From: Brachyhypopomus gauderio
Lineage: Eukaryota; Chordata; Actinopteri; Gymnotiformes; Hypopomidae
Reading direction: 5' to 3'
DNA: 64,000 nt
NCBI RefSeq assembly: GCF_052324685.1
Contig: NW_027506901.1
Coordinates: forward strand, 566,001-630,000
The notes under the pieces are model-generated. The model saw nothing but the letters and a program-made list of their open reading frames with translations. It did not search any database and was not told the origin of the DNA. Of the stretch, positions 2,580 to 56,560 are shown in pieces. The translations under genes were made by a program, and so were the position numbers. Positions within the stretch are counted from its first letter, which is position 1. Every line of letters begins with the position of its first letter.

Positions 2580-3668
2580 TTAATTATCAAACGCTAAACC
2601 AAATAGGTGGGTTTTCAACCTAGACTTAAAGATTGTGACTGTGTCAGAGTCCCGTACGCATTTTGGAAGGTTGTTCCAAAGTTCCTGGAGGTATTCAGGA
2701 GAAAGCCCGTGCAGTGCTTTATATGTTAATAATAGAATTTTAAAGTCAATACGGAATTTTACTGGGAGCCAATGCAGGGCTGATAGGACTGGTCTAATAT
2801 GCTGAAATTTTCTAGTTCTGGTCAGAACTCTGGCTGCGGCATTTTGAACTATTTGAAGTTTATTTAGATTCCTATTTGAACATCCTGGCAGTAGTGAATT
2901 GCAGTAGTCTAATCTAGAGCTAATAAAGGCATGCACCAATTTTTCTGCATCATCCTGTGATAATGCATTTCTTAATTTGACAATGTTGCGGAGATGTAGA
3001 AATGCTATCCTAGTAGTATTATCTATGTATTTATCAAATGATAGGTCGGAGTCAAGTATGACGCCTAGGTTTTTGGCTACTGTGCCAGGTGTAATGGGAT
3101 AGTCTGCAAGATTAAGCATTAAATTTGGATTTTTTTGTCTTGCGGCCTTAGGGCCCACAAGGAGAACTTCCGTTTTGTCCTCATTTAGTTGGAGGAAATT
3201 TAGAGACATCCAGCATTTAATATCTCTTACACAGGCCTCAATTTTTCCTAAACTGAGTTTGTCATCAGGTTTGGCTGATATGTAAAGTTGAGTGTCATCT
3301 GCATAGCAGTGAAAATTGACACCATGTTTGTTTATAACTGTGCCCAATGGTAGCATATATAATGTAAATAATAGTGGTCCTAAGATGGAGCCTTGCGGGA
3401 CCCCATATTTAACTATTGTACGTTTGGATGGAATATCATTGAGCTCTACAAACTGATAGCAATTTGTTAAGTAAGAATAAAACCATGAAAGGGCTGTGCC
3501 AGAGACTCCAACCCAGCGTTCTAACCTTTCTAGCAAGATCCTATGATCAATTGTGTCGAATGCTGCACTAAGATCAAGAAGCACTAACAGTGATACATAG
3601 CCTTGATCTGAAGCAAGGAGGAGATCATTTGTTACTTTAACTAATGCTGTTTCAGTACTTTTTCCTTG
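2580..3668 (-). pseudogene. L2 ORF2 reverse transcriptase domain
   Basis: The long open part (3584-2580) holds [13 protein letters not shown] (RT motif A with Asp), YGVPQGSILGPLLF (motif B), [10 protein letters not shown] (catalytic ADD) and the C-terminal region with LDYCNSLLPG, QNAAARVL and SRLKTHLFGLAF, ending at a stop. Upstream, the frame continues to about 3668 and then breaks where the finger region should be. The protein would copy L2 RNA at nicked target DNA, but this copy lacks a continuous link to its endonuclease. Confidence 0.85.
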
Positions 3669-6890: not shown

Positions 6891-7415
6891 ACAGAACTTG
6901 CTTCTGTTGTTGCATCTTTAACCAACCTTCTCAGTCCTAAGGCACAGTTTCAGTGGTCCAGTAATTGTCAGGAACCCTTTGATAATGCAAAATGTCTTTT
7001 AGCTACTGCTCCGGTGTTGCAGGCCCCAAACTTTAACTCTCCCTTTTGTTTGGCTGTAGATGCCAGTGAGCATGGTGCTGGTGCTGTGTTGATGCAGAGT
7101 GACTTGGGTGGGGTAGAGCATCCAGTATGCTACTACTCTAAGAAATTTAATAGTCACCAACGAGCTTACTCCACTGTGGAACGAGAGGCTCTTGTCCTGA
7201 TTCTTGCTGTGCAACATTTTGAAGTTTATTTGGGGTCTTCATTGGTCCCCATAACTGTTTACACTGATCACAACCCACTGGTTTTTATTGATAAAATGAG
7301 AAACCAGAATCAACGCATCATGCGGTGGAGTTTAATTCTCCAGTGTTACCCGCTCCTAATTCAGCACATCAGGGGTAGGGATAATGTAATAGCTGATGCA
7401 TTGTCCCGAGTTTAG
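6891..7415 (+). pseudogene. Gmr1-like RNase H / connection region
   Basis: This continues in the same frame as the RT after the in-frame TAA. It carries the connection segment (SPKAQFQWSSNCQEPFDNAK) and the RNase H core: VDASEHGAGAVLMQ (first Asp), TVEREALVLILAVQHFE (Glu), VYTDHNPL (Asp) and IADALSRV at the end. This is the normal C-terminus of a Gmr1-type polyprotein, consistent with no integrase following it. Confidence 0.85.
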
Positions 7416-7575
7416 GAATCGTTTATTTTTGTTTTTGTTTTTTCCTCTTAGACATATTTTCTTTCTCCTAGGCGCCAGGATTAAGGAAGGTGTGTTTCTG
7501 AAGGGAACACAAGTGGTCTTTTATTTAGGATTTTGTTGAGCTTGGTTTGTACCAACCCTCTTTTAGGGAGGGAGG

Positions 7576-7902
7576 TGTTACAACCCCATGGGTACTAGTC
7601 TGTCAGTGCACGGGCAGGGCTGGGTCTGATTGGTCTAATTAGATCATTGAGAACACCTTGGTGGTATTGTTTATAAGGAGGGGCTCTTTCTTTCTGGGGG
7701 GGGCATTTATTTTCTTTGTTTGGGCACGTTGTGTTGGGCTTCTTGATTGCTCCTCTCTCTCTCCTATTTAAGCACTACTACTCAACCTACATCTCTCTCT
7801 CTCTCCTATTTTTGAATTGACTTATTAAAAATTTCTTCGAGAATTGAACCGTTGTTGTTCCCTTCTTATGTTGCGGTGTGTGGACGAGCTCAGGCCGTAA
7901 CA
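7576..7902 (+). repeat. 3' LTR of the Gmr1-like element
   Basis: The repeat starts TGTTACAACC and ends CCGTAACA, giving TGTTAC/GTAACA terminal inverted hexamers. A purine tract (AGGGAGGGAGG, 7565-7575) immediately precedes it, as expected for the polypurine tract. A TATTTAAG box occurs near 7767 and a pyrimidine-rich CTCTCTCTCC segment is repeated. Between RNase H (7415) and the tract lies about 150 bp of non-coding sequence. The 5' LTR is outside the window, so LTR-LTR divergence cannot be read. Confidence 0.8.
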
Positions 7903-7911
7903 CACCGCAAT

Positions 7912-8126
7912 CGAAATGTGTCCTCTGCTTTTACCCATCTGTGCAATTGGAACACACACACAAACACACTAGTGATTACTAGGGGGCTGTGGTGCACACG
8001 TGCCCAGAGCGGTGGGCAGCCCTAGCCCGGCACCCGGGGAGCAGTTGGGGTTTGGTGCCTTGCTCAAGGGCACCTCAGTCAAGGCCTCACAAGGTCACAA
8101 GATCAGTTCCCTACCACCAGACCATG
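7912..8126 (+). repeat. Dispersed fish repeat (GGTGGGCAGCC...GGTGCCTTGCTCAAGGGC type)
   Basis: The sequence from 7912 contains TTTACCCATCTGTGCAAT, an ACACAC run, GGGGGCTGTGGTGCACACG, then GCGGTGGGCAGCC and GGTGCCTTGCTCAAGGGCAC. Its first part reappears in inverted orientation at 36955-37372. It is a widespread type of fish interspersed repeat; its class is not resolved here. Confidence 0.6.
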
Positions 8127-8232
8127 ACTGTAGTGGTGTACAGTCACACTGTAGTGGTGTACACACTGTAGTGGTGTAGAGTCACACTGTAGTGGTGTAG
8201 AGTCACACTGTAGCGGTGTAGAGTCACACTGT
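8126..8232. repeat. Short tandem repeat, about 20-22-bp unit
   Basis: Five imperfect copies of a unit containing CACACTGTAGTGGTGTAGAG. It lies 3' of the first C1q gene. Confidence 0.75.
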
Positions 8233-8239
8233 GTAGCTG

Positions 8240-8780
8240 GCTGGGTCTCAGCCTTCATCCACACTGCGAGTTCTGGTCCTCTTACGGGTAATATTAACAT
8301 TTACTCAATTACTCAATTTCCATGAAGGCATTTATATAAAGAACTTTACCCAATACTTGCATAGATTACATAGTTAAATTTTTTGCAAATTGTTTTGGTT
8401 ATTTTTGCTTGTTTGTTGTGCAGAGAGGACAAGTGTGAGCTACAGTAGTCCATGAGAAAGCGCTGATCATACTACAATGACCAAACAGCTCATCAAAACA
8501 GTACTGCGCATGCTAACAGAGTTAGCTATATAGCAGACAAACCAACTATTTAGCCTGATATCTTTAATCAGCTATTATAACACAGCACTGTAAACTTCTG
8601 CTAATGGGCCAGGTGGTAATATGCATAGAATAATGACTCTTTGTTTATAATGCAACAGGATTATGCAACATCGGTAGTAACAATAGTTGTATTTTCAATG
8701 TAAAAGCAAAAAATAATAGATTGCAAAATGTAAGATCAGTATAAAAATCCAATCAAAAATAACATTTGACAAACTCACAA
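8240..8780. other. 3' flank of C1q gene 1
   Basis: AT-rich non-coding DNA. From about 8595 it resembles the stretch starting near 14875, so the C1q segmental duplication extends beyond the stop codon. No other feature seen. Confidence 0.5.
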
Positions 8781-11640
8781 TCAATTAGTAAAGATGAGGT
8801 GTCCACTAAAAGTATTGCCCTTGAAACCACACGCAGACAAGTAATAGGAGGCAGGTAAACGAGTGTTAACAACATCTCCTTTCTGCAGCTGCAGGGTAAG
8901 ACCACCAGCAATGTATTTGTAATTATTACCATAGTTATTATAACCATATCCATATAAGAAGAGCAGCTTCTCATTGTTCTTGTACAAATTAACACCTGAA
9001 TAATAGCCATAAGTCGCTGAACAGGTGGTGAACCTGACGTAGTAGACTCCTCTGACTGGAGCGGTCAACATTCCTGAAATAAGACACACAAATCAGGTAC
9101 TTTTCCACTTATAAATAATATCATAATGAACCATTAACTGCAGAATGTGCAAATTAACTGAATCATGAAGTTGATTCATAGTCAACTGCTAGAAAATCTG
9201 CCTAAAATGATAATTTACTGCCAGTAGTCTAGAGAACATTTATCTGTTTATTTTCTTTTTTAGTAGGAGAGTGTGATTCTTTCCTCAGGCATAAACGAAT
9301 GCGTTCAGTAATTTTCTAGAGGTATTAACCAATGATAGTGTAGAGGAGCAGAGAGAATAATTTCATTGGTCAAAATCCAATCATTTTTCCTGATTGGCTG
9401 ACAACTTGTCAGTGAGCCAGCACACGAGGATGTTTGCAGCGGTGCAGAGGGAATCTGAGCGAGAACAGAGTAAATATGACTGAAAGATGGACACGTGTGC
9501 GTGGTGTGTGAATCATGCTTTCATATTCAAAAATGTGTTCTTGACTAGTGGCAGTTAATCAACACCATACATACCATACTTCACTGGTTTTTAGTGTAAC
9601 TGAGCAAATAACATACTCACAACTCATGTCTGCATGTCATAACCCAAACTCCACTTCCCAGAACCCCACACTGCTAACCACACCTTCCAATCCCATAATT
9701 CCTTCCAGTTCTGATTCTTAACGTCACCTGTTTTGTGTTTTCCCACTAGTCTGATTAAAGTCTGGTCTTTCCACTCGTCTGTGGTTTACTATGTGTTTCC
9801 ACATTGTTGTTTTACGTCTTTTGTCATCAATCTGTTTCTGTTCTTTGCTATAATTGTCTGTTCTGTTTGCTGTGTTTCTGTCCATCCATGTTGAGATGAA
9901 CACCTGGTTTTGGATTGTCTTTCTGTATATGAACCAGCCATATACTCTAGAAAAACTGCTCTTTATAAATATTAGTCCAGAAACACTGGAATGTTGAATT
10001 ATTACTCCAGAAATGCTGCACTGATGAATTATTACTCCAGAAATACTGCACAGTTGAATTATTACTCCAGAAATACTACAGAGTTGAACTATTACTCCAG
10101 AAATACTGCACAGTAGTAATTATTACTCCAGCCTGACTGCAGTGTTTTCCAGTGCCATGGCTACATCTGTGGTACACTGATGGTTCTGATCGCTCCTGAT
10201 CTGATGTGTAGACATGTTGTGAGTACCTGTACTTGGGCTGTAAGCTCCTCCAACATTTGTGATGACCACAGAGTAGACCACATTGGTGATGCTGTTCAAA
10301 GATCCCAAACTTCCATCCAGAGCCGCTGAGAATGCCACCTTGGGTCTGTCTACAGAGTCCAACACCATCAGTGACACAGAACACATGGACTTGTACAACT
10401 CTTCTCCTAGTGGGTTCACCAGTGAGGGGTTTACAGTTTACCTATGTTTGCTCTCTTCAGATAGTCCACATCACTTTCACTAGTAGCCAGTCTGGCATTA
10501 AGGGCTGTTGAGGAACATAATTGAGGATGATAAGTGAACATGAGGGGGAGTTTGTATGCTGTAGGGAGTCCTGCAGTCGTCAGTGTCAGGTTGGATCTGT
10601 GCTTATTTACCTGCACTTGTTTTCTTCAGTATCATTACTTGATTCTTACTGGCGTCTAGTGCAGTCTTTGTTGCTGTTCATTAAGCCATAATGAGAAACC
10701 AAAAATATTAACATGTGAATTATATGGTAATAATAACAAAACACATAAAGGGGACTCTCACAGACAGGTAGAACAGAGCAGTGTTGGTAAAATGCCCAAC
10801 AGAATCACTCTGCTCACAGCTGTGGGGACACTAGAGTAGAAGAGATAAATAGGGAGGAAATTAAGAAGGAGCAGGTGTGTGATTGGTAAGGGGGCGTGGC
10901 TGTGAGGTGTGATTGGTGGATTCCTGGCTGAGTGTTGACTGAGGCATGACAATCGTATTTATTTACCCGTTTTCTGTTTCTTCAGGATTTTAACTTCACC
11001 CTCAGAGGCTGCTAACCTGTCCTTCACAGCAGACATCTCAGCTGTCTGTGCTGAAAGAAGGAAAACAAATCTGATCACTGGGGAAAACTCACCAAATATT
11101 TAAACGTTTTATAAAAGCAACATGTACATTTGTATGATCTACACCCCATGTTGTGTTTTTTGTTAGATAAGCTCTGTCCATGAACACATAATTCCATTAC
11201 CTGAAATCTCTTTATTCAAGGTCTCCACTTTATTCTCCATTTGTTTGGTCTGTTTGATCCGTTGGGCAATTTTGCTCTTCAGGGCTGGCAAAGAATTTAT
11301 CATTGAACTCAAACCATGAACTCAAATGTTTCAGTTATTTAAGACAAAATTGGAAAACCAAAAAATATCTAAATCTTTAGTTGGTGAATAGTTACTGTTG
11401 TTATATATCTGAACATCCAAACAGAAAAAGCACCAAATCACTCTTACCCGTGTTTTCCTGCTGCACGTATTTCATCTCCGTCTTCAGCTCCACCAGAGCG
11501 GTTCCTTGCTGGTACACAGTGTCTTTAAGCTGCTTCAACTCAGTAGGGAAGTTTGTTGGATTTGAAGCTTCAGCACTTTCAGCTTCCTGCAGGCTGTTGT
11601 GGACCAGCAGCAGTAGAGTTACAACAGCACTTCTCTTCAT
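8781..11640 (-). CDS. Secreted collagen-less C1q-domain protein, paralogue 1 (7 exons, 294 aa)
   Basis: Exons in coding order: 11640-11448, 11284-11201, 11050-10967, 10655-10611, 10504-10442, 10349-10227 and 9073-8781. They total 885 nt. Every junction is GT/AG and phase 1. Exon 1 encodes a signal peptide ([20 protein letters not shown]) and the start of a helical stalk. Exons 2-5 encode short heptad-rich pieces (for example AEMSAVKDRLAASEGEVK) in place of a collagen Gly-X-Y stalk. Exons 6-7 encode the C1q domain from about residue 158 (PKVAFSAAL, VVYSVVITNVGGAY, then TAPVRGVYYVRF, GGLTLQLQKGD and NTFSGHLIF). Secreted C1q-domain proteins trimerise and act as soluble pattern-recognition or signalling ligands; the role here is inferred. 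The start is the ATG before KRS. An upstream in-frame GTG is not a credible start. It is a tandem duplicate of the gene at 15066-17224. Confidence 0.85.
9972..10135. repeat. Intronic minisatellite between the two C1q-domain exons (gene 1)
   Basis: About five copies of a roughly 30-bp unit containing ATTACTCCAGAAATACTGCA lie in the last intron of C1q gene 1, next to the 3' side of exon 6. The same array is longer in gene 2. Confidence 0.85.
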
Positions 11641-19691: not shown

Positions 19692-21729
19692 TTAGCTGAA
19701 GGCTTGATTAAACAGGTGAGTCTTAAGTCTAGATTTAAAGATTGGAACTGTGTCAGAATCTGGAAGGCTATTCCATAATTGAGGGGCTTTAAAAGAGAAA
19801 GCTCTGCCTCCGGCTGTAGTTTTACAAATTTTTGGAACTAGGAGAAATCCAGCATTTTGGGAGCGCAAAGGGCGAGATGGGTTGTAGTAATCAATGAGTT
19901 CACTCAGATATTGTGGGGCAAGACCATTTAACGCCTTATAGGTTAACAGGAGAACTTTAAATTCAATGCGATATTTAATCGGCAGCCAGTGTAGTGCGGC
20001 GAGAGTGGGACTAATATGATCGAATTTCCTGGCCTTGGTTAGAACTCTAGCTGCGGCATTTTGTACAAGTTGTAGCTTCTTTATGGACTGTTTAGAGCAT
20101 CCAATTAGAAGACTATTACAGTAGTCCAATCTCGATGAGACAAAAACATGAACTAGCTTCTCTGCATCAGCTAATGAAAGTAAGTGTCTCAGCTTGGCGA
20201 TATTACGTAAATGCCTCCTGCCTAACCGGATGCATACATCATGATGGACATTATTACATATTTTTCCTTTTCTTTCTCTTCTTTCTGTCTAAATTGTTGT
20301 TGTTGTTGTCATGGTGACCGGTGTCGGCCAGAGGAGGATGGGTTCCCCCCCTGAGTCTTGGTTCCTCTCAAGGTTTCTTCCTCATGCAAAAAACTAGGGA
20401 GTTTTTCCTTGCCACTGTCGCCTTTGGCTTGCTCACTGGGGACTAGGACTCGGCACTTGTAAAGCTGCTTTGTGACAACAACTGTTGTAAAAAGCGCTAT
20501 ATAAATAAAATTTGATTGATTGATTGAAATGGAAAAAGGCAGCCTTAGTGACATTGCATACATGTCCGTCAAATGAAAGATCAGAATCAATAGTGACACC
20601 TAAACTTTTTGCAGTAGATTTTGGTGTTACTGAAAAACCATCTAGGGTAAGGGGAATATCAGCCCAATTGCTTCTAACAGCTTTAGGCCCAAGAATCAGT
20701 ACCTCAGTCTTGTCAGAATTTAGTTTAAGAAAATTAGACGCCATCCAGTTTTTAATATCCTGGACGCAGTTCTCAATCTTGAGTTGTGGTGGTATCATCT
20801 GGATTAGAAGATATATACAACTGAGTATCATCTGCATAGCAATGGAAGCTAATACCATGCCTACGAATGATAGTGCCCAGTGGTAGCATATATAATGAGA
20901 ATAATATGGGGCCCAGTACAGATCCTTGTGGGACACCATACTTTACTTTAGAATGCTCAGAGCATTCGTTATTTACTAGCACAAATTGGTAACGATCTGT
21001 CAGGTAGGACCTGAACCAGGAGAGTGCTTGACCTCTTATGCCAATGAGTGTCTCCAGTCTATTAAGTAGAATATTATGATCAATGGTGTCAAAAGCAGCA
21101 CTGAGGTCTAGCAGTATGAGAAACGAAATGTGTCCTTTATCAGAGGATATTAAGAGATCATTCAGTACTTTAGTTAGTGCTGTTTCAGTGCTGTGATGAG
21201 CTCTAAATCCAGACTGAAATAACTCTAAGACATGTTCTGTCTGTAAGAAGGAAGAGAGTTGTGAAGAAACTACTTTCTCTAAAATTTTGGATATGAATAA
21301 CAGATTAGAAATTGGCCTATAGTTGGACAGTTCTTGGGGGTTAAGACCAGGTTTTTTAATTAGCGGCTTGATGACTGCAAGTTTAAATGAACTGGGAACG
21401 TAGCCCAGGCTCAGAGAATAATTTATTATAGTAAGCAACGGTTCTACATTGCTGTGCAGTAATTCTTTAAGTAGTTGGGTTGGTACAGCATCTAGTATGC
21501 ATGTGGAGGGTTTAGCAGATTTCACCAGTGAAATAAGCTCCTCACGACCAATTGGGGAGAAGGACTCTAACAGGGCATCAGAGCTGACCAGACAGCTGTC
21601 AAGGTGCATTGGCATGTTGACAGGCTCTGAGATAGCACAACTAATGTTTTCCCTAATTTTATCAATCTTATCATTAAAGAATTTCATAAAATTGTTACTG
21701 CTACACTCTAGTGCAGGGGTCTCCAACAC
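19692..21729 (-). pseudogene. L2 ORF2 reverse transcriptase (copy 2), split
   Basis: The N-terminal RT part (21729-20773) includes [58 protein letters not shown] and [10 protein letters not shown]. It shifts frame at about 20800 and continues to about 20528. There a 0.29-kb L2 3' tail in the opposite orientation interrupts it. The C-terminal part (20235-19692) has LDYCNSLLIG, QNAAARVLTKARKF and SRLKTHLFNQAFS before the stop. All catalytic RT motifs are present, but the protein is broken. Confidence 0.85.
20240..20527 (+). mobile_element. Truncated L2 3' tail inserted in the opposite orientation
   Basis: The segment runs from CATGATGGACATTATTACAT through GTCATGGTGACCGGTG and AACTAGGGAGTTTTTCC to the ATTGATTGATTGA end. 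It is the reverse complement of the 3' UTR seen in L2 copy 1 (about 1893-2175). It interrupts the RT frame of the host LINE. Confidence 0.85.
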
Positions 21730-45096: not shown

Positions 45097-46476
45097 CTAT
45101 AAGATCAGAGTTAACTAATGAAAAGGAGGAGAGAGACTGAGGAGAGGGCAGGGTAGTAGTCAATGAGGAAGAGGAGAGAGAGGAATTGTGTGACTGGTGC
45201 TTCAACAAAACCTGATAAATAAGGGACACTTTCTGATTAAAGAAATTAAGAAATTCATTGCACCGATCAGTTGTGGGGGAAGGGGACAATGATGAGGGAC
45301 GCAGAAGGTTATTAACAATCTTGAAAAGTCGCTTGGGGTCAGAGCCAGCACTGTTTATTGCTGATGTGTAGTGAAGTGTACGGGCTTTATTTAAAGCATC
45401 CTTATATTTGGCCAAGTGATCCATATATGCCTGGTAGTGAACAGATAGATGAGTTTTCCTATATAGACGCTCAAGGCGCCTACCAGTGGTTTTCTGGGCA
45501 CGAAGTTCAGCAGTAAACCAGGGTGATGAGTGAGAGGAGGGCACAAGTCGTGTTTTAACAGGTGCTAGAGTATTGAGAGTATCAGTAAGGGACTGGTTGT
45601 ATACAGCGACAGCATCGTCAATATTGTGAATAGAAGTGATGAGGGGAAATTTAGTGGATTCCAGGGCAGAGAAAAATGTAGTTGAAACAATGGATGAAAG
45701 ACTACGGTAAGACTACGGTAAGTGACAGATGATTTAGTGGAGTGGAGTTCAGTGTGTAGTGCAATATGTGATGTAATGAGCAGGTGATCCGATATAGCAA
45801 TGTCATGACCAGATACATTTGTGATAGTTCCAGGTGAGGAACAGATTAAGTCTAAAGTATGTCCATGCTTATGTGTTGGGAAGTTGACATGCTGTTGTAA
45901 CTCAAAACTGTCCAGTAATGATAAAAAATCTGTGGAGCTGGAAGAAACTGAGTCAATGTGTATGTTAAAGTCTCCGAGGACAACCAATGAACTTGAAAGA
46001 GAGCTAACAACAGTTAGTACTTCGCCAAATTCTAGAATGAACTCCGAGAGTGAGCTGTTGGGAGGACGGTAGACAAGTAATAGTGTAGAAGAGCTGTGTC
46101 CAGATATTTTGAGAGCCATGCACTCAAAATGAACTGTTTCCTGCAATGCACACACACTAATGTTAATTTTGCTGTTGAATAAAATAGCTAAACCTCCACC
46201 ACGACCACCCTGTCTGGGGGCAGAGAGATTTTTGAAGCCAGGTGGAGTAGCTGCATTTAGCTGGTAGTAATCATCAGGTGTTTGCCAGGTTTCAGTTAAA
46301 AGAAAAATGTCCAGTTGATGTTGTTTGATCAGATCATTAATAAATGCAGCTTTATCAGTCATGGAACGACAGTTGAACAGAGCCAGGTTTAGGGAACGAG
46401 GTTGAACAGATGAACGGTGGACAGCAGTAACCAGAGTCTTGGACCGGGTGATTTCTTTTAGAGCGCTGAGATCCAC
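45097..46476 (-). pseudogene. LINE (second family) endonuclease and linker
   Basis: The frame from 46476 contains LNLALFNCRSMTDKAAFIND, DIFLLTETWQTPDDYYQL, PRQGGRGGGLAILF, LLVYRPPNSSLSEF, LVVLGDFNIHID, HGHTLDLICS and ISDHLLITSHIAL, the full ordered set of APE endonuclease motifs. The linker (45544-45097) has SPWFTAELRAQKTTGRRLER and DPKRLFKIVNNLL. A frameshift near 45600 separates the two. Confidence 0.85.
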
Positions 46477-46759
46477 GCCATAATGGGACCCTGGTGAACC
46501 GATTTTGGAACGCCGGACCGAACTGGAGATAACCGGAATACTGGATGCAGATGATTGTTGGTAATAGTGGTGATGTCTGGGACCACGATGGATATACCGG
46601 GGTCGTCGAGCGATACCAGCAGAGAAACATTTGCTGTAGGTGGTGGAGTCAAGCCGAGATGTAGAGCGCGGGTTATAAAGTCACTATGGCATTAGCCAAT
46701 AAACTACTACAGAAGTGCTTTAAAGCTAGGTTCAGGCATGAAAATGGGTCAGGGGTTAA

Positions 46760-46930
46760 AAAGGTGACAAGACCGGGGGGGGCGGGGCATGTGACATCAA
46801 GGGGATACGGCGACGGGGCGTTGACATGTGGGGGGGGGGGGGGGGGTTTGACATGTGACGTCATGGGTATACTGCGACGGGGGGGGTTGGGGGTGGCTGC
46901 TGCTGTACGGGGATACAGCGACAGGTGATG
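46760..46930 (+). repeat. G-rich imperfect tandem repeat
   Basis: Units containing GACATGTG, a G run of 7-18 bases and ATACGGCGACGG or ATACTGCGACGG recur three to four times. The longest G run lies at about 46832-46848. Confidence 0.6.
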
Positions 46931-46942
46931 CCAAATATTGCT

Positions 46943-47234
46943 CGTAAGGTGACATCATGTAAAAAATATAATAACGCGTGGCCACGACTTACTAACGCAT
47001 GCGAACGACTTACTAACGCGTGCGAACAAGATAATTAAGTATTACTTTATATAAAGCCAGGTTTACCTTCCTTGGGCAGTCAGTTCGCGAACATCCCTGG
47101 GATCTGCTTGCTTTGCTGTGAAAAAATAAACTTTGTTGCCGCGTGTGAAAGGCGACATTAGTATCTCGTTCCCACACGTTAATAAGTCGTGGCCACGCGT
47201 TATTTATTTATTTTTTACATGATGTCACCTTACG
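46943..47234. mobile_element. MITE with about 50-bp inverted ends
   Basis: The left end is CGTAAGGTGACATCATGTAA and the right end its reverse complement. The arms also share AACGCGTGGCCACGACTTA. Inside are TATATAAAGCC and AATAAACTTTG words. There is no coding capacity. Confidence 0.7.
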
Positions 47235-47449
47235 GGCTCCGTAAAATATAGTAAAATCCATAAAAAAAAATTTTTTTGACTGTCATGTCAATGGATTCAA
47301 TGTAAACGCAATCCGTAAACGCAAGAAGCCGCTCTCGCCATTCCGGGTGGCTCAGTCAAAACCATTACGTCTTAATGAACCAATAAATACATCAGCGGCG
47401 AAAATGAGTGTAAAAATACCAGGGTTCACGTGTTTTTATTTTCTAACAT

Positions 47450-48062
47450 GGGCCCTCGCACAGGGGCGGAGCCACCGCGATTACGTCATTTTCGGACCCT
47501 CGTGCCGGTCGTGACGCGTCAAGTATAAACCAAGTTTGACACGGCTCAGGGATGACCTCACACGCAGCGCCGTGCGCAGTGCCGTAGTGCCTGTACATTT
47601 AAATTTTAATGGTCCAATGAAGGTAATTTAAAAACCAGGACATTTCCTCACTTAAAAAACAAAAAAAACCCGGGACGCCCGGGACAAGACGTGAAATACG
47701 GACATGTCCCAGGAAATACAGACGTTTGGTCATCCTACTTAAAGGCCATACTGTAGCTCCCTTATCCCATTATTGTATTTGTCCCAGTTTTCCTGTTAAT
47801 TGGAGACACTGACACAGCTTGAGCTGACTGTTTGTTGTGATTTGGTGCTGTATAAATAAAATTTAATTGAATTGTTTTGCAACGTGAACTTTGAAGAAAA
47901 TTATTATTTTCTTTCTTCTTCTCTGCAGATTGACAGTGCTGTCATAGCACTGATGGATGATGCAGCTCTTGCAAATTACATCCCTTCCTATGGAGACCGC
48001 ATTGCCATCTTCAATTTCTGCAAAAGCAAGCAACCACTCTCACAGAGAAAACAAGGACTTTT
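47450..48062 (+). repeat. Left inverted arm of the HECT/DDE element
   Basis: It pairs with 54223-54836. Read in order it holds a family-Y terminus (to 47533), TTTGACACGGCTCAGGGATG, CCGGGACGCCCGGGACAAG, a GTCATCCTAC word at about 47729-47738, a retroposon-like tail (GTGCTGTATAAATAAAATTT, about 47847-47866), a CTCTGCAG splice acceptor at 47921-47928 and the first about 134 coding bases. The non-coding 475-plus bp differ from the other arm by only one substitution and an A-run length by eye. The coding part shows about a dozen differences. Confidence 0.85.
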
Positions 48063-49704
48063 ACAAAAACTTCGTGAAAAAATGCAAAACAGAAAGGAAG
48101 GTCCCAAGGAGAACACTTCACATGCAGACACACGAACAAGACAGACAAAGAAGCCAAAGACATCAAGAAATGTTGAAATAGGATGGATACATCATGATGG
48201 AAAAATAACCAAACAGGTGAGGGCAAAGCAGGGAGGTGGCACCAGAAAAATTCAAATGGCCACTGATGCAGGATTGAAGGATATTCTTCAGCAAGGCAAG
48301 ATTTTCTTTTTCCCTGATGGAGTGTCTCCTAAAGGATGTGAAACTGATTTTGAGTTTGAGGTCTGGGACTTTAAACAGAACCACCTTACTGATGACACTT
48401 GCCAGTCTATTGGTGATATGTATGAAGCAGCAAGGCTGACAATGTTACGCTTCTACATTGCAACAAAGCCAAAATATGTTGAAGAAGAGGCCAGTGAGAC
48501 ATCTGAAGTGATGTTTGTCTCTGCAAGCAGTGGCAGTGAAATTAATCCAACAGAAGTGGCAGAAGTCTTAGGTACTTTTCAAGGAGACCACCATCCTTTA
48601 GAAATTTCAGATGATTCAGAGATAACCTTTGGTCCCACTTTTGATGCTGAAGAAGGTACAGAGGACACATTAATCTATGAAGGTTTTCTTGTACCCCTCA
48701 GTCCAGCTAATCCAGAGGATGTAGTAACAATCATTGTACATCATGCTAACATTTTACATAACATGATTACTGCTTTCTGTGATGCAGAGATTTTGACTAA
48801 AACACTGAATGTGAAACGCATACTTCCAGACAATACAGAAGAAGCAGGTAGAGGATCAGGAGTACTGAGAGATGTACTCAGCTGCTTCTGGCAAGAATTC
48901 TATGAGCGATGCACCCTTGGTGCAACAGTTAAAGTGCCATTCATTCGCCATGATTTTTCTGCTGAAAAATGGAAGGCAACTGGCAGAATACTTCTGAAAG
49001 GTTACCAAGACTGTCAGTATTTTCCAACCAAACTTGCTATCCCTTTTCTTGAACAAGTGCTTTTCAACTGTGTTTACAGTGATCTTAAAGTGCATTTTCT
49101 GCAGTTTGTGAGCAGCCAAGAATGTGAAGTTTTGGTGCAAGCAGTAAGTGATTTCACTGCAGTTGACATGGATGATCTTGTGGAAGTTCTTGACAATTAT
49201 GGATGTAGGAAAATAATCACAGCTGAGACTCTTCCAACAATCCTTGATGAAATAGCACATAAGGAGCTTGTCTAAAAACCAATGTTTGTTATTGACTGTT
49301 GGAGGGAAATCACCCATCCCCACCTTGCCCTCACTCCAGAGACACTGACTAAGTTGTTCTCGGACCTGCAGCCAACTTCAAAAAAAGTCTGCCAACTTCT
49401 GAAATTTTCTGTTGATTTGACACCAAAGCAAAAGGAAGTGGTAAATCATCTGAAACGATTCATCAGAGAGTTGGATGACATTAAACTTCAGAAATTTCTG
49501 CGATTCTGCACTGGATCAGATCTTGTAGTGACAGACAGTATATATGTGGAGTTTCAAGCTATGACAGAGTTTACAAGAAGACCAGTTGGACACACGTGCG
49601 GGAAGATTCTGCAAATAGCTGACAGCTATGAAAACTTCCCAGATTTCCGTTCTGAATTTAATGCAGTTCTGGAAAGCAATGTCTGGGTAATGGACATTGT
49701 ATAG
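47929..49704 (+). pseudogene. HECT-type E3 ubiquitin-ligase-like protein with SAM-like N-terminus, one in-frame stop
   Basis: The frame follows a CTCTGCAG acceptor at 47928. The N-terminus (IDSAVIALMDDAALANYIPS, then YGDRIAIFNFC) resembles a SAM-like helix bundle. A middle segment has EIGWIHHDGKITKQVRAKQG and GGTRKIQMATD. From about 48830 the sequence is HECT-like (EEAGRGSGVLRDVLSCFWQE, PFIRHDFSAEKWKATGRILL). The C-lobe after 49282 ends PVGHTCGKILQIADSYENFP, with the His-Thr-Cys of the HECT active site at 49591-49599, and stops at 49704. A single in-frame TAA at 49273-49275 separates the lobes, so this copy would make a protein without the catalytic Cys. G2/M-phase-specific E3-like HECT proteins are multiplied in fish genomes, and this belongs to that type. 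No upstream exon 1 is visible on the left side. Polyadenylation-like AATAAA words occur at 50444 and 50880. Confidence 0.75.
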
Positions 49705-51020
49705 ACTCTCACAGGAACAGCAATTCACTACATATTTGAGCTCTATACAAAACACTCCTTCTTGTTCTTTTATAATTAGAAAGAAGTTACCATATTTGTG
49801 TCAGAAGCCCAGTTTTGGCTACAAATCTTCCAGTCTCTTTTATTATCCAGTTTCACGATAAACTGGTACAGTCACAAAACAAAATGAACTGGCACACTGT
49901 CCGTTACCAAAGCTAAAGCTATTTTCACCTAATCCAAGTTCTCCAGTTGCATAACAGAAACCTTGAGCAACAACAAAAATTGTGCTCATTAGAGATGTAT
50001 GCAATATAAAGAAAATGTTCTTTCATGTTTTCTTTAATGCACCCAGTGAAATATTTTTTTTGTTAAGTTGTGTGAAAGTTTACATCACATTACATCACAT
50101 TTATCTATTTTGCGCAAAGCCAAATACTTTTGTAAGGACTAATTTATTCTGATGTTCTATTGTAAGCATTATAGGCAGTTGTTAGACACTGTTTTGCTAG
50201 TTGCCAACTGGAATTTGCATAATTTTGCACATTTGCATTAGTCATGCTTGTGATATTTTGCTTTATATGCCCTTGTTAGTTTAAAAGATCAAAGGTTGGT
50301 ATTTGCTGTTGGATGTTCAAGTACCACATAAGCACACATTTGTGAACGCACATGTTTTTAGAATATATTCATGTATTTCCACTGTTTTCTTAAATGGTGT
50401 GTTGTTTCTAAACATTCATCCAAGAAAATGCTGCAAACTGCAAAATAAATAGAGTTTTAAAGACATTTACTGATTGTCATTGCACAGACACTATACAGTG
50501 CAGTGTCCAAGGGCTGTGATTATTCTTTCATTCTTATGCCATCATTCTTACGTCATTCTTATACAAAATTTCCATGTTCTCTAGTATTAGTTTCAAGACT
50601 AAAAATAATGTCCTTGTTACCTATGGAAATTTTGGACATTTTTATTGTATGCATGTTCTTAAACATTAGCACTTAACAACAGCTGACTCTTGAGGAATTT
50701 CTAATGCAATTGCCAGTGTTTGTGATCTTGTACACTAAGTCTGATGCATGACACAAGGCTGTATGAGATCTACACGTTATTTTTAAAAGTAGTGCTATTC
50801 TTGTTACAGGACATAGTTTTAGAGAGTTTGCTCTGTCTTCTTGGATTTACAATAACAATGTTTCTTGCAAAATATTTTCAATAAAATGTTACTTTTACCA
50901 CTACATTTATATTGTAGTTCTGAGTCTTTTGATAAAGTTCAGTATCCATTTGAACCATATCCATATCCTGACCTTGAGCCTTCACTGCTTTTGTCTTACA
51001 TGTAGCATTGCTTGCAGAAG
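49705..51020 (+). other. 3' non-coding region of the HECT-like gene
   Basis: AT-rich, with no frame of note. AATAAA at 50444-50449 and 50880-50885 are candidate poly(A) signals. An imperfect TACATCACATTACATCACAT direct repeat occurs near 50080. Confidence 0.5.
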
Positions 51021-51650
51021 TAGATTATTTTCTAAAGTTATATACCAAATTAAAGGGTATGTTGGTAGATTATTTTCTAAAGTTATATACCAGATTAAAG
51101 GGTATGTTAGTAGATTATTTTCTAAAGTTATATACCAAATTAAAGGGTATGTTAGTAGATTATTTTCTAAAGTTATATACCAAATTAAAGGGTATGTTAG
51201 TAGATTATTTTCTAAAGTTATATACCAGATTAAAGGGTATGTTGGTAGATTATTTTCTAAAGTTATATACCAAATTAAAGGGTATGTTAGTAGATTATTT
51301 TCTAAAGTTATATACCAAATTAAAGGGTATGTTAGTAGATTATTTTCTAAAGTTATATACCAGATTAAAGGGTATGTTGGTAGATTATTTTCTAAAGTTA
51401 TATACCAGATTAAAGGGTATGTTAGTAGATTATTTTCTAAAGTTATATACCAAATTAAAGGGTATGTTAGTAGATTATTTTCTAAAGTTATATACCAAAT
51501 TAAAGGGTATGTTGGTAGATTATTTTCTAAAGTTATATACCAAATTAAAGGGTATGTTAGTAGATTATTTTCTAAAGTTATATACCAGATTAAAGGGTAT
51601 GTTGGTAGATTATTTTCTAAAGTTATATACCAAATTAAAGGGTATGTTGG
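51021..51650. repeat. Perfect-length tandem array: 14 units of 45 bp
   Basis: Each unit starts GTAGATTATTTTCTAAAGTT and is exactly 45 bp. Units differ at only two positions (CCAAAT/CCAGAT and GTTA/GTTG before the next unit). The 15-codon periodicity leaves frames open on both strands (VDYFLKLYTKLKGML plus, LPTYPLIWYITLENN minus), but there is no start context or homology, so I treat it as non-coding. It sits between the two convergent genes of the HECT/DDE element. Confidence 0.95.
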
Positions 51651-51659
51651 TGACCGTTG

Positions 51660-52434
51660 CAGCCACTGTTCTGTCAAATTGGTGCTGGTATACCATGAAT
51701 AAAAATTTAACTTTCGGCTGTAGGTCTTTTAATTGTATGAATCATGTTAGATTAATTAGCTTTGTACATGACAGCTCATACTGCATCAGTTTGGAAATGA
51801 CTGAAAATGGAAAATCCAAAATCTTACAATAACATTACAGTACAAAGATGATGGTAAAAGGTGATGGTTCTTCACATGGGTAACCATGCCTATCTTCATT
51901 TTATTTCTACTAAAAGCCCAAAATATGTAACAGCTTGATATATTAACAATGATGTGTTTATATAAATGTTTATATAAATATATTTGGGTCTATATGTAGT
52001 TTAGACCCAAAAATGTGGAGTACATGCATCTATGATTTACAGAAACATATAATGATAAAATAATTTCCTATTGTTCCTGGCTAGCAACCCAGGCACCAGG
52101 ACTACACGTGACAACAGAAACACAATTAACAGAGCTATTTTATTCTTCTAATGGCAGATAGGTTTTATACATTCACAAAATAATTGGATATCCACCATAC
52201 TGTATTGGTTTTACTATTAGACTAAAATGATCTGCTATAAGCACTCTGAATTTACATTTTTTTTTAAGTATTCACAGAATGACATGAAAAGAATGACATG
52301 GCAAGCCTGTTTGCTTGTACCCAAAATGCATTTATCTGGAAAACGTCTTACACTAACTGCAACACAACACAATAGGGTACTTGTAAGACATGGCAACAGT
52401 TATTAAATCATGTGATCAAGACAAACTGCAATAT
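51660..52434. other. Non-coding spacer between the array and the transposase gene
   Basis: AT-rich, no motif recognised. AATAAA on the minus strand at 52435-52440 is the likely poly(A) signal of the transposase gene. Confidence 0.5.
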
Positions 52435-52478
52435 TTTATTTATATTTGCACATGTAAATAGTGGATGTGTGCCATTTC

Positions 52479-54181
52479 TTAAATACTATGGAGTATTTCT
52501 TCTCTTAACCTGATATACAGGTCAGCTGCAGCAAGTGGGTCTACTGGGGCATCCCATTCATTTTCTACCATAAGTAGACAACAAAGTTCAAAGACAGTTT
52601 CATCACAGGGAAATCGACCTTTTGGAGTGTACTCTTCCATACAAACAGTGAGCTCCTCCATGTGAATAGGTTTCAGTCTGTCCTCAGCACTGTGCAGCTC
52701 TGGGAATGAGTACATCATGATTGGCCGGCGCGGTGCAGCACCACCACTTGATCTTGGTCGAATTTTGTGCGAGTTCCATGTGTTCACAACTTCATCAAGT
52801 TCATCCTACAAAGAAAGTAGCGCAGAATAAAAGAATAAAACAAATTGTGCACCAATAACTCTTGCCAAAGTTAAGGCTTATGAAGTCATCAATAGACAGC
52901 AGGAATTTTCATTCAAATGACCTCTAATCAATCTAAAAACAAGCAGTAACTACAAAGTAGCACTTTCACCAGTCAGCAATCACCAATAAGTGTAACAATT
53001 TATTCTGGGTGTTCAGTAATTCCACAAACTATTTTCATGATAACTTCACTAATTCAGAACACTGCTTTCTGCCCAAAACGAGGGCTGTACATTTTCAGGG
53101 AACCAGATTCTCCAGTAATTTAAACTATGTGGAAGAAAACTAATTTGCTCCATGCACCTGTCCTGAGAAAGTTGCAGTTAATATAACTGATATTTATCCA
53201 TTTTGCTTCTACTTATCCTTTTAAATGAAAAAAAAAACAAGATTTTTCATGTCAAAGAAAGATTTTATAATTACTAATAACACTACTATATTGATTTACA
53301 ATATACAATGTCTACAACTGAGACATTACAGAGGATGAGGAAGCTTTTACCTGAACAAGATTAAGAAAGCAGAACTGGATAAGACTTTTGTCCAAAAAGT
53401 CTCCCGTGAAGTGACCATCATCCTGAAATGTTTTAAATAAATTCATCCAGAACTGTGCACTCTGTTTGCGGAGGGTAGCCCACCATCCTTCAATGCGCTG
53501 GTTGGCTGTACTTGTTCCATATAAGAAACTTCTCTGCCCTGCAAAACTGTCTGTGTGATTTCTACGCAAAAACATTTGCATTTGTTCTACACAACCATTT
53601 TCTGTGCCCCTGTCAGCACGTACTCTCTCTGGACATCCATTCATGCATGAAACTTTTCAAAAAGTAACTTGCAACCAATTTAGGGTCACTGTTTGTGATA
53701 TAGGCCTCCAGCCATAAACATAGCGGCTAAAACCATCTATGCAACCATTGATGGCAATGCCATAGGGTTTTAATTTGTCATAGCCATCCATATGCCAAAG
53801 CGCATTTGGTCCTCTGCAGCTGTACTGACGTCTTCTCAAGCGTCGAGCTCGTCTTAATTCCACACCTTGTGGATCAACCAATTTGATAATGCGTCTTATG
53901 GTATCTTGTGACACAACAAATCCACGTTGAACTGCACGAAGATGTAGCCAACGATAACCTTGCATCTGGCCACTGGTCATGATTTCTTGTTGAACAAAGG
54001 CCAGTACTTCTTGCAGGTCTGTCTGATTCTTTCTTCTAAAGAGCCCTAGTCTTTTACAAATTCTCTTTAGGGTACGCACACTTATAAGTATCTGATTATT
54101 ATCAGCTAAAATTGCAAGTATTTCTTTGTTACTGAAAGACAGTCTGAAGTACAATCGAATTAAGTCATCTAACTCTGACAT
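52479..54181 (-). pseudogene. Integrase-type DDE transposase, 3 exons, frame-damaged
   Basis: Exon A starts at the ATG at 54181 (MSELDDLIRL). It has a helix-turn-helix-rich N-terminus (SNKEILAILADNN, SVRTLKRICKRLGLF), an RWLHLRAVQRGF segment and a basic RRARRLRRRQY patch. The first catalytic Asp is at about residue 132 (HMDGYDKLKPYGIAINGCID). Exon A/B continues to a GT donor after LNLVQ at 53351, with the second Asp in ERVRADRGTENG and Glu in NQRIEGWWATLRK, about 40 residues apart. The last exon (52806-52479) follows a TTTGTAG acceptor and ends HSI-stop. Between 53710 and 53645 the recognisable protein (ITNSDPKLVASYF) is in another frame with compensating shifts, and a TGA lies in the main frame. 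The copy is therefore broken between the first two catalytic residues. The core resembles IS3/retroviral integrases. Confidence 0.75.
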
Positions 54182-54222
54182 TGTAGGCACCGTTTTTGTC
54201 ACTCCAGGGTCCAGCCTTTCAC

Positions 54223-54836
54223 AAAAGTCTTTGTTTTCTTTGTGAGAGTGGTTGTTTGCTTTAGCAGAAATTGAAGATGGCAATGCGGTCTCCATAGGAG
54301 GGGACGGAATTTGCAAGAGCCGTGTCATCAATCAGTGCTATGACAGCATTGTCAATCTGCAGAGAAGAAGAAAGAAAATAATAATTTTCTTCAAAGTTCA
54401 CGTTGCAAAACAATTCAATTAAATTTTATTTATACAGCACCAAATCACAACAAACAGTCAGCTCAAGCTGTGTCAGTGTCTCCAATTAACAGGAAAACTG
54501 GGACAAATACAATAATGGGATAAGGGAGCTACAGTATGGCCTTTAAGTAGGATGACCAAACGTCTGTATTTCCTGGGACATGTCCGTATTTCACGTCTTG
54601 TCCCGGGCGTCCCGGGTTTTTTTTTGTTTTTTAAGTGAGGAAATGTCCTGGTTTTTAAATTACCTTCATTGGACCATTAAAATTTAAATGTACAGGCACT
54701 ACGGCACTGCGCACGGCGCTGCGTGTGAGGTCATCCCTGAGCCGCGTCAAACTTGGTTTATACTTGACGCGTCACGACCGGCACGAGGGTCCGAAAATGA
54801 CGTAATCGCGGTGGCTCCGCCCCTGTGCGAGGGCCC
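54223..54836 (-). repeat. Right inverted arm of the HECT/DDE element
   Basis: Reverse complement of 47450-48062. It includes the same CTCTGCAG acceptor (coding starts at 54356) and a SAM-like coding start (IDNAVIALIDDTALANSVPS, then YGDRIAIFNFC). Here that is followed at once by a stop (TAA where the left arm has AAA). The transposase ATG lies 42 bp further on, outside the arm. Confidence 0.85.
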
Positions 54837-55098
54837 CGCGCGCTGTCGCTTCGCGAGGTCATGCACCTCTCGAATTTTGTAACTTCGATTTTTAACGGTC
54901 ATAATTCATGCTTCAGTGGGGCAGCCCTGTTCTTAATCACAATGTAGACAGCGTGACTGTCAGTACGCAAGAAACATGCAACATGCAACCCCCCCCCTCC
55001 AAGGCGTGTGTACAATACGCCCGGTACAGTTCGCGCAGGGTCGCGCAAGGTGGGCGGAGTCACGCGCTACAGTCATTCGCGAAAGTATAAACCAGGCT
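54752..55098 (-). mobile_element. Family Y MITE-like element, copy 3
   Basis: Begins TTGGTTTATACTTGACGCG and ends GCGAAAGTATAAACCAGGCT. It contains GACGTAATCGCGGTGGCTCC and GAGGTCATGCACCTCTCG. Its first 85 bp form the outer end of the right inverted arm. Confidence 0.65.
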
Positions 55099-55099
55099 T

Positions 55100-55459
55100 C
55101 ATTCCCAGTAGCGAACCGGTGAAATTCTCAGCCCGGTGCAGCGCGAGGCTGCTGACTAGAACTGTGCTGAGACTTAGGCTAGCATAGACTATAAATTGTG
55201 ATTTCAGTCTTGAACAGTCTTAAACTGATATTGGCTGGCGGCTAGCGCTCATAACATGCTGCTTAATTTCCGTAGTAAACGTACTCGGTTCAAACTGAAA
55301 AGAAGTACAATAATACTCAAAAACCCGTAAATTCACCGACTTTGATGTAATGTGAGACGTTGCCTATTTGGCTAACATTATAAGCTAACAAACATGCTAA
55401 CAAGTAACGGTTACTTGCTGAGAAAAAGTGCCAGCCGACAAACTGTCTTTGTTACTCAC
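55100..55459. other. Intron-like spacer upstream of the right arm
   Basis: No coding frames. GCTAGC-type and GCTAACA-rich words, otherwise plain. Confidence 0.4.
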
Positions 55460-55474
55460 CTTCTGCTCTTCCAT
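55460..55474 (-). CDS. Candidate first exon (MEEQK) for a SAM-like gene reading into the right arm
   Basis: ATGGAAGAGCAGAAG is followed directly by GTGAGT. This phase-0 donor matches the phase-0 acceptor at 54356 (CTCTGCAG, then ATTGAC). Together they would give a start for the SAM-like N-terminus, which lacks its own ATG at that position. It is present only upstream of the right arm; nothing equivalent is seen left of 47450. Weak but specific evidence. Confidence 0.35.
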
Positions 55475-55619
55475 TATTGAAATGCTGTCTTCTGGCACCC
55501 CGCCCCCACGTAGAAACTCGCTTAAATCAGAGACTTTCCGTCCACAGGTTGGTTCACCAACTGCACGCCTCTACATGTCTGTCGGTCTCTGGTCATTAAG
55601 CTGATGACTTCCAAGTACC

Positions 55620-55850
55620 CACAATTGTGAGATTAAAGTCAGAATTGTGAGATTAAAGTCAGAATTGTGAGAAAAAAGTCAGAATTCTGAGATTAAAGTC
55701 AGAATTCTGAGATTAATGTCAGAATTCTGAGAATAAAGTCAGAATTGTGAGATTAAAGTCAGAATTGTGAGAAAAAAAGTCCGAATTGTGAGAATAAAGT
55801 CAGAATTGTGAGAAAAAATTCAGAATTCTGACTTTAATCTCAGAATTCTG
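55620..55850. repeat. 20-bp tandem repeat
   Basis: About eleven copies of a unit containing GTGAGATTAAAGTCAGAATT, with an inverted partial copy (CTGACTTTAATCTCAGAATT) at the right end, so the array can fold back. Confidence 0.85.
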
Positions 55851-55860
55851 GCTGCCCTTT

Positions 55861-56560
55861 TTTTTCCAATACTCCATTTATTTATTTTTTTATAGTGGCC
55901 CTAATCCTCTTCCGTAAGTTACAACTACAGACACACTAGAAAAAAAAATCTTGTTTCTTATTTTATGTCACCGTTAACTACACGGGGTTGACGCGAACTT
56001 AATAGGCCCATCTATCTACCTATTTATCACAAGAGCTTGTGGTTAGATCTGACAGTGTTCAACGCTGTAGCGAACGGCAGTAACTTTGTTTTACCGCAAA
56101 ATATGAAAACGATTGAAACCATTAATATCCCAATTAAATCCACCCAATTAAAAATGTACGATCTAGTAAATGTAGTGGTAAATGTACGATCTGGTAAATG
56201 TAGTGGTAAATATACGCTCTTCTGCCTTGTCCCCGGTGTAGCACTAGGTCCTGCTTCTCGTCCCGCTTAGCAGTAAATGAATAACATGAATGAAGAACGT
56301 TCGTATGATTGAAACGCTATTTGGCCTCTATGAAGGTTCTGGGCGGAAACTGCTGGCCACTGTCATTGAAATTGCCAATTTCGGAAGTGCTCTGTTTGCT
56401 TTAAGTCAATATGATAATTAAAATATATACATATAATCTCCCGACCCCCCCCCCCCCCCCCCAACAAAAAACTCATCGGATCTACACGATTCACGTAGGT
56501 CACCCTTTTCAACTTCAAAACGGCGAATTTCGCCGAAAGGTGACAGATTATCATGCCTGT
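55861..56560. other. Non-coding interval with a poly-C run
   Basis: A C run of about 17 occurs near 56445-56462, and a short direct repeat (GTAAATGTAGTGGTAAAT) near 56165-56210. No gene. Confidence 0.5.

Follow-up and report, generated by a model that had tools for sequence, protein, structure and literature searches.

Convergent ligase and transposase genes in the window

The 64,000-nucleotide stretch of Brachyhypopomus gauderio DNA analyzed here (contig NW_027506901.1, positions 566,001 to 630,000; hereafter the window) contains two convergent genes between inverted repeats, one for a probable HECT-type ubiquitin ligase with a SAM-like start and one for an integrase-type DDE transposase (Table 1). 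This feature is very probably a dead, left-truncated copy of a DNA transposon of the IS3EU/GingerRoot type, which normally carries a convergent IS3/IS481-like DDE transposase and a HECT-type ligase. The assignment is drawn from features of the sequence, namely ends, direct repeats, long inverted repeats, open reading frames in other copies, recurrence of the gene pair and amino-acid changes between subfamilies that are fewer than expected under neutrality.

A first-pass annotation had placed the two genes between arms of about 613 bp and had delimited the element as 47450..54836. Both arm segments are present in the window: 47450-47674 mirrors 54612-54836 (225 nt, 99% identity, inverted), and 47654-48062 mirrors 54223-54631 (409 nt, 97%). 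However, the arms form only the inner portion of terminal inverted repeats, and the proposed limits had to be revised, as the right terminus of the copy lies at 55916 and its left end is missing. The left repeat is cut off at 47450, its outer part, with the terminus and the first HECT exon, being gone. Window positions 46000-47460 gave no match to the related loci L045, L046, L047 and L050. In addition, positions 47450-47583 on the left and 54703-55189 on the right found no match in the full-length copy C7 (see below); a portion of these stretches resembles another interspersed repeat. An Rfam scan of the window returned nothing.

Each gene of the window copy is interrupted by one in-frame stop codon. 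For the ligase, the annotated HECT-like C-terminus with an HTC motif is borne out: the piece downstream of the stop matches the Pfam HECT profile with 24.0 bits (cut-off 23.9), and the codon of the catalytic cysteine lies at 49597-49599; the piece upstream of the stop matched no Pfam family above cut-off. The SAM-like N-terminus, also annotated, remains a weak assignment, the best Pfam match being SAM_3 with an E value of 0.16, in a second family only (see below) and without any such match in the first. A resemblance of the SAM-like region to PDB entry 8fje (E 2.9e-5) was judged a chance match, as it comprised no single significant stretch and looked repetitive.

For the transposase, both halves of the first exon in the window match Pfam rva_4 (42.2 and 38.5 bits; cut-off 26), in agreement with the annotated DDE core, while the accompanying helix-turn-helix region stayed below threshold (HTH_21, 15.2 bits against a cut-off of 28.1). 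The second exon had no Pfam match. The start originally listed for the DDE frame turned out to be a SAM-like exon read in another frame; judged from the sequence, the protein most likely begins at MSELDD (54181). The predicted transposase comprises 386 residues and matches rva_4 with 117.8 bits, and the catalytic residues are spaced D-58-D-40-E in the intact C7 copy. In NCBIfam, its similarity to IS481 (E 2e-10) and IS3 (E 4e-9) does not reach either curated cut-off. A Pfam scan with E values up to 1 revealed no zinc-binding integrase (HHCC) domain in the transposase of either family, and comparison with solved structures gave nothing significant. Neither the transposase nor the ligase alignment found relatives in the viral contigs searched.

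Table 1. Features of the transposon copy, in window positions
Feature	Position	Strand	Remarks
Left terminal inverted repeat, surviving inner part	47450..48062	+	self-comparison of the window
Main HECT exon, from the second half of the SAM-like region through the linker to the HECT domain	47929..49704	+	TAA at 49273-49275
45-bp minisatellite between the two gene ends	51019..51648	.	14 copies at 97%; longer than in the copies compared
Transposase exon 2	52479..52805	-	follows GT-AG intron (53344-52806)
Transposase exon 1: helical N-terminus, D-D-E core (HMDG, RADRG, NQRIEGWW)	53345..54181	-	TGA at 53659-53657
Right terminal inverted repeat	54223..55916	-	terminus GGCCCTAATCCTCTTCCGTA at 55916; comparison with full-length copies
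Second SAM-like exon copy in right repeat	54223..54356	-	just 5' of the transposase start; earlier stop here
First SAM-like exon copy in right repeat	55460..55528	-	matches the C7 exon at 62 of 69 aligned bases
20-bp tandem repeats, close to terminus	55623..55847	-	11 copies; also near the ends of full-length copies
Transposon terminus TACGGAAGAGGATTAGGGCCAC	55895..55916	-	genome-wide terminus search

Full-length copies and organization of the element

The genome searched comprises 796.5 Mb in 840 contigs. With the left arm as query, at least 53 matches were found (best 40 of 2673 candidates scored), including paired arms on seven contigs besides that of the window. The terminus TACGGAAGAGGATTAGGGCC is located at both ends of six copies (C1, C3, C5, C7, C11 and C27), one right end being one base off; 11 of these 12 ends conform to TACGG...CCGTA, the odd right end reading CCGTG. 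A further copy, C108, has only the right terminus, like the window copy. Allowing up to two mismatches, the 22-base terminus had 58 matches genome-wide, 29 per strand, and a reversed-pattern control had 0. Direct repeats border five of the six full-length copies and measure 6 bp in four cases (ctaggt, gcaatg, aattca and catatg) and 7 bp in one (ctgtgtg at C27); C11, which sits within a TA repeat, has no clear direct repeat.

The cleanest copy, C7, is 9072 bp long, with terminal repeats of about 1.77 kb (positions 1-1769 and 7300-9072) that are 99.7% alike; within-copy identity is lower elsewhere (96% in C11, 98% in C27). Leaving out C5, which is interrupted, the full-length copies are mutually 98.5-99.3% identical, and we therefore suggest that the window-type family probably spread recently. 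The 20-bp tandem repeats near the terminus are possible transposase-binding sites.

Each full-length copy carries the same two convergent genes, HECT-type with a SAM-like start and integrase-type DDE transposase. The 340-codon transposase frame is open in all six, the 609-codon main HECT frame in four (C1, C3, C7 and C11; broken in C5 and C27), and the predicted ligase has 616 residues in C7. These copies bear on a different account of the locus, according to which a host HECT gene or retrocopy came to lie beside an unrelated transposase and the arms arose by local inverted duplication. The window copy by itself, truncated, with repeat-rich arms and both genes broken, would fit such chance nesting; six full-length copies with both genes between the same ends argue against it. 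According to the first-pass annotation, the pairing would be chance nesting if other copies of the arms never held both genes or if each gene occurred in separate, unrelated elements; the full-length copies show the opposite.

Inside each terminal repeat, a first exon encoding MSDLNEFLRGRGVPEDSISIMEEQK (in the left repeat of C3 and in C7, C11 and C27) is followed by a second exon. The first exon is frame-shifted in both repeats of C1, differs at two residues in the right repeat of C3 and was not found in C5 by exact search. In full-length copies, the left-repeat exons open the HECT protein. The right-repeat copy of the same two exons makes up a 70-residue SAM-like frame (C3, C7, C11 and C27; e.g. 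locus L042), the end of which precedes the transposase ATG by 37 bases in C7. This frame might serve as a leader, encode a small protein or have a regulatory role. We also considered a SAM-transposase fusion. It is unlikely, as in every one of the six full-length copies the right-repeat SAM-like frame terminates ahead of the transposase ATG, and visual inspection revealed no plausible splice.

Some further observations concern the element's surroundings and derivatives. Miniature derivatives with the same termini facing each other occur at C5:29710184-29710359 (176 bp) and C18:10265058-10265235 (178 bp). In C5, the left terminal repeat contains a long frame of the BEL/Pao type (L051 1863-7850; C5:35882862-35888849, minus strand) with Peptidase_A17, RVT_1, integrase and DUF5641 domains (Pfam, two pieces scanned). 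Elsewhere in the window, frames resembling a reverse transcriptase or endonuclease of long interspersed nuclear elements were seen by eye at 2580-3584, 20773-21729 and 45565-46476 (minus).

Recurrence of the gene pair and apparent constraint on both genes

To what extent the two genes accompany each other was assessed across the genome, all locus and match counts being lower bounds. A protein search with the transposase gave at least 141 matches (139 of 314 candidates scored), which merged into 120 loci. A search with the ligase gave at least 90 matches (74 of 132 candidates scored), six of which covered only the SAM-like exon of the right repeat and were dropped, the remaining 84 forming 53 loci. 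At 41 of these 53 loci, a transposase lies within 12 kb, and the nearest one is convergent in 41 of 41 cases, compared with 0.19 expected by chance. In a second test, the Pfam HECT profile gave at least 138 matches (129 of 242 candidates scored) at 82 loci, many of which are presumably ordinary host HECT genes. Here, 35 loci had a nearby transposase, again convergent without exception (35/35) and separated by no more than 5.1 kb, with 0.37 expected; the result was unchanged after a recheck against all 120 transposase loci. As two of these 35 pairs were already among the 41, both tests together identify 74 convergent loci, and the pairing suggested by the first-pass annotation thus recurs at dozens of places in this genome.

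Identity to the query is about 43-53% for the better-matched transposases of other families and about 31-44% for the longer ligase matches, so that the pairing spans divergent families. The association of the ligase with the transposase is not due to chance. Recurrence of the pair in divergent families led us to reject chance nesting, the likelihood of which we regard as very small given 74 convergent pairs against the 0.19 and 0.37 expected in the two tests.

Two groups of loci stand apart from the pairs. Eight rva_4 loci (C4:1786197, C13:10780885, C438:35182, C116:58632, C5:34412794, C64:70761, C108:406045 and C3:3614275) each have one in-frame TGA and no HECT match within 12 kb among the matches listed, and possibly represent a ligase-less family or share an intron or a stop; a ninth such locus, C8:2640094, has a HECT locus at a distance of 4.7 kb, which is already paired with a nearer transposase. 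On the minus strand of C15 (12803139-12876199), four HECT loci follow in a row with no transposase within 12 kb, possibly a host gene cluster.

A second family, represented by locus L065 (C11:23374550-23379300), contains an intact convergent ligase-transposase pair. Its ligase is 42% identical to that of C7, with no difference in the HTC motif or in the ten C-terminal residues, and the intron in the SAM-like region occupies the same place in both. No SAM-like exon was seen in the 76 bases upstream of the L065 transposase ATG; the shared SAM-like leader may therefore be special to the window's family, the ligase being common to both.

Comparison of the C7 and window copies yielded ratios of non-synonymous to synonymous substitution rates (dN/dS) of 0.23 for the ligase (18 synonymous and 16 non-synonymous changes) and 0.16 for the transposase (5.5 and 3.5, respectively), with rough binomial P values of 4e-5 and 0.004 if 79% of sites are assumed to be non-synonymous. 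For further copies of the window subfamily, the ratio was 0.25-0.26 in the ligase (two copies) and 0.26 in the transposase (one copy); many of the changes are probably the same ones, and these comparisons do not count as independent tests. Between subfamilies, both genes appear to be under constraint.

This constraint bears on whether the ligase is a mere passenger, captured once by an ancestor of these families and of no benefit to the element. The passenger account could explain why neither search found a HECT partner for 58 of the 120 transposase loci, and it accords with six open DDE frames against four open HECT frames and with the ligase dN/dS of 0.45-0.94 among recent copies. It sits poorly with the constraint between subfamilies and with a catalytic motif, C-terminus and intron position conserved between families whose ligases are 42% identical, and we consider it quite unlikely. 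Alternatively, the protein could be a DNA- or protein-binding partner of the transposase that reuses the HECT fold without ligase activity. The HECT match is indeed weak overall, and Pfam does not recognize the N-terminal part of the region; against such a non-catalytic partner, the HTC motif is retained in both families examined at full length, and Pfam HECT matches at many paired loci include the cysteine-bearing C-terminal end of the profile. This alternative, too, appears unlikely. A transposon that normally carries a HECT-type ligase gene remains our preferred reading, and ligase catalysis probably matters, given the conserved cysteine motif and C-terminus and the apparent constraint on the gene.

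Several observations nevertheless weigh against this reading. With regard to the pairing, 12 of the 53 HECT loci have no transposase within 12 kb, and the partnerless 58 transposase loci may be fragments, members of ligase-less families or neighbors of ligases too divergent to be matched. When every neighbor was counted and the listed rva_4 loci were added, three extra transposase neighbors within 12 kb that were not the nearest (on C24, C26 and C8) were all divergent. With regard to the ligase, the match of the C7 copy to the Pfam HECT profile is modest (26.1 bits), and that of L065 falls below the cut-off (18.8 bits; cut-off 23.9). No solved HECT structure matched the ligase significantly (HUWE1, E 0.67; the top of six matches was RAD4, E 0.36), and the predicted fold of the window HECT region had a mean predicted local distance difference test (pLDDT) score of 37 and was not used. 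The entire predicted ligase, first exon included, is open only in C3, C7 and C11. Finally, among recent copies, which differ by very few changes (transposase dN/dS 0-0.52), the ligase values are those expected from drift after insertion and lend no support to constraint.

Possible function of the ligase and relation to known systems

DDE transposases act at the ends of their elements. Together with the target duplications, this established property of the enzyme class suggests that the transposase would bind the TACGG ends and the adjoining 20-bp repeats and move the element by a 6-bp staggered cut. As the start of either gene lies in a copy of the long repeat, both are probably driven by a single promoter sequence in this family. 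The ligase would pass ubiquitin via its HTC cysteine to a protein that limits the element, and the SAM-like N-terminus, despite its weak profile match, would be a plausible interaction module. From the sequence, our tentative first choice of target is a host factor that silences or restricts the element or repairs its breaks; somewhat more doubtfully, the target could be the transposase itself or a lasting strand-transfer complex. Another target or a non-catalytic role may account for the remainder.

On a broader view, we slightly favor the idea that the HECT ligase is an old core component of IS3EU elements in this animal lineage, controlling a host or transposase protein; that much of the large 'G2/M-phase-specific E3-like' set in fish annotations would then consist of transposon genes and not of a host family; and that, in the window's family, the terminal repeats give both genes the same promoter and a shared SAM-like leader. 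Many viruses manipulate the protein-degradation system of their hosts. Some DNA transposons may do likewise, as suggested by a transposon-borne ligase that has been retained in divergent families; its substrate and its necessity for transposition become testable questions. Moreover, some of the HECT ligase genes annotated in fish may belong to transposons, with consequences for gene counts and for claims of family expansion.

G2E3 and G2/M-phase-specific E3-like sequences, HECT-type ligases like the predicted one of the present element, are annotated as genes, whereas 41 of the 53 loci related to our ligase adjoin a transposase. Other fish provide hints in two reports, neither of which tests the pairing: G2E3 is named among the blastx matches of unclassified repeat elements in Cottus (PMC5638112), and a bacterial artificial chromosome from a carp hybrid carries a G2/M-phase-specific E3-like gene together with two uncharacterized genes (PMC5549377). 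Prokaryotic IS481 and IS3 transposases have in common with the element the above DDE core similarity, below both curated cut-offs; the present element is larger, eukaryotic and equipped with an intron and a second gene.

By its ends, repeat length and transposase, the element fits the known IS3EU/GingerRoot superfamily. According to the available part of PMC10045372, IS3EU elements have TA..TA termini, usually 6-bp target duplications, no HHCC motif and an IS3/IS481-like DDE transposase. The element shares the termini (TACGG...CCGTA), 6-bp duplications (at four of six copies), the type of transposase and the lack of an HHCC domain upstream of the core; it differs in its terminal repeats of about 1.77 kb, which hold protein-coding exons. 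IS3EU is described there by its transposase, ends and target duplications, and the paper contains 0 mentions of HECT or ubiquitin. The first-pass annotation had regarded the transposon as possibly undescribed; the literature searched upholds this for the ligase only, as the transposon type fits a known superfamily. No publication naming IS3EU together with HECT was found in this literature, and no HECT-bearing DNA transposon was described among the matches listed, although Repbase entries may already record the ligase.

A parallel in gene arrangement comes from fungi. A set of rust-fungus IS3EU elements ends in TAYGG..CCRTA and generates 6-bp target duplications (PMC12730594), and neither HECT nor ubiquitin is mentioned in that paper (0 mentions). 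The TET-bearing elements described there share with the present one the type of ends and a second gene opposing the transposase. In contrast to the HECT-type ligase, the opposed gene of the fungal elements is an alpha-kinase, with a TET/JBP gene in between (PMC12730594). The opposed accessory gene of the present element thus has a parallel within the superfamily.

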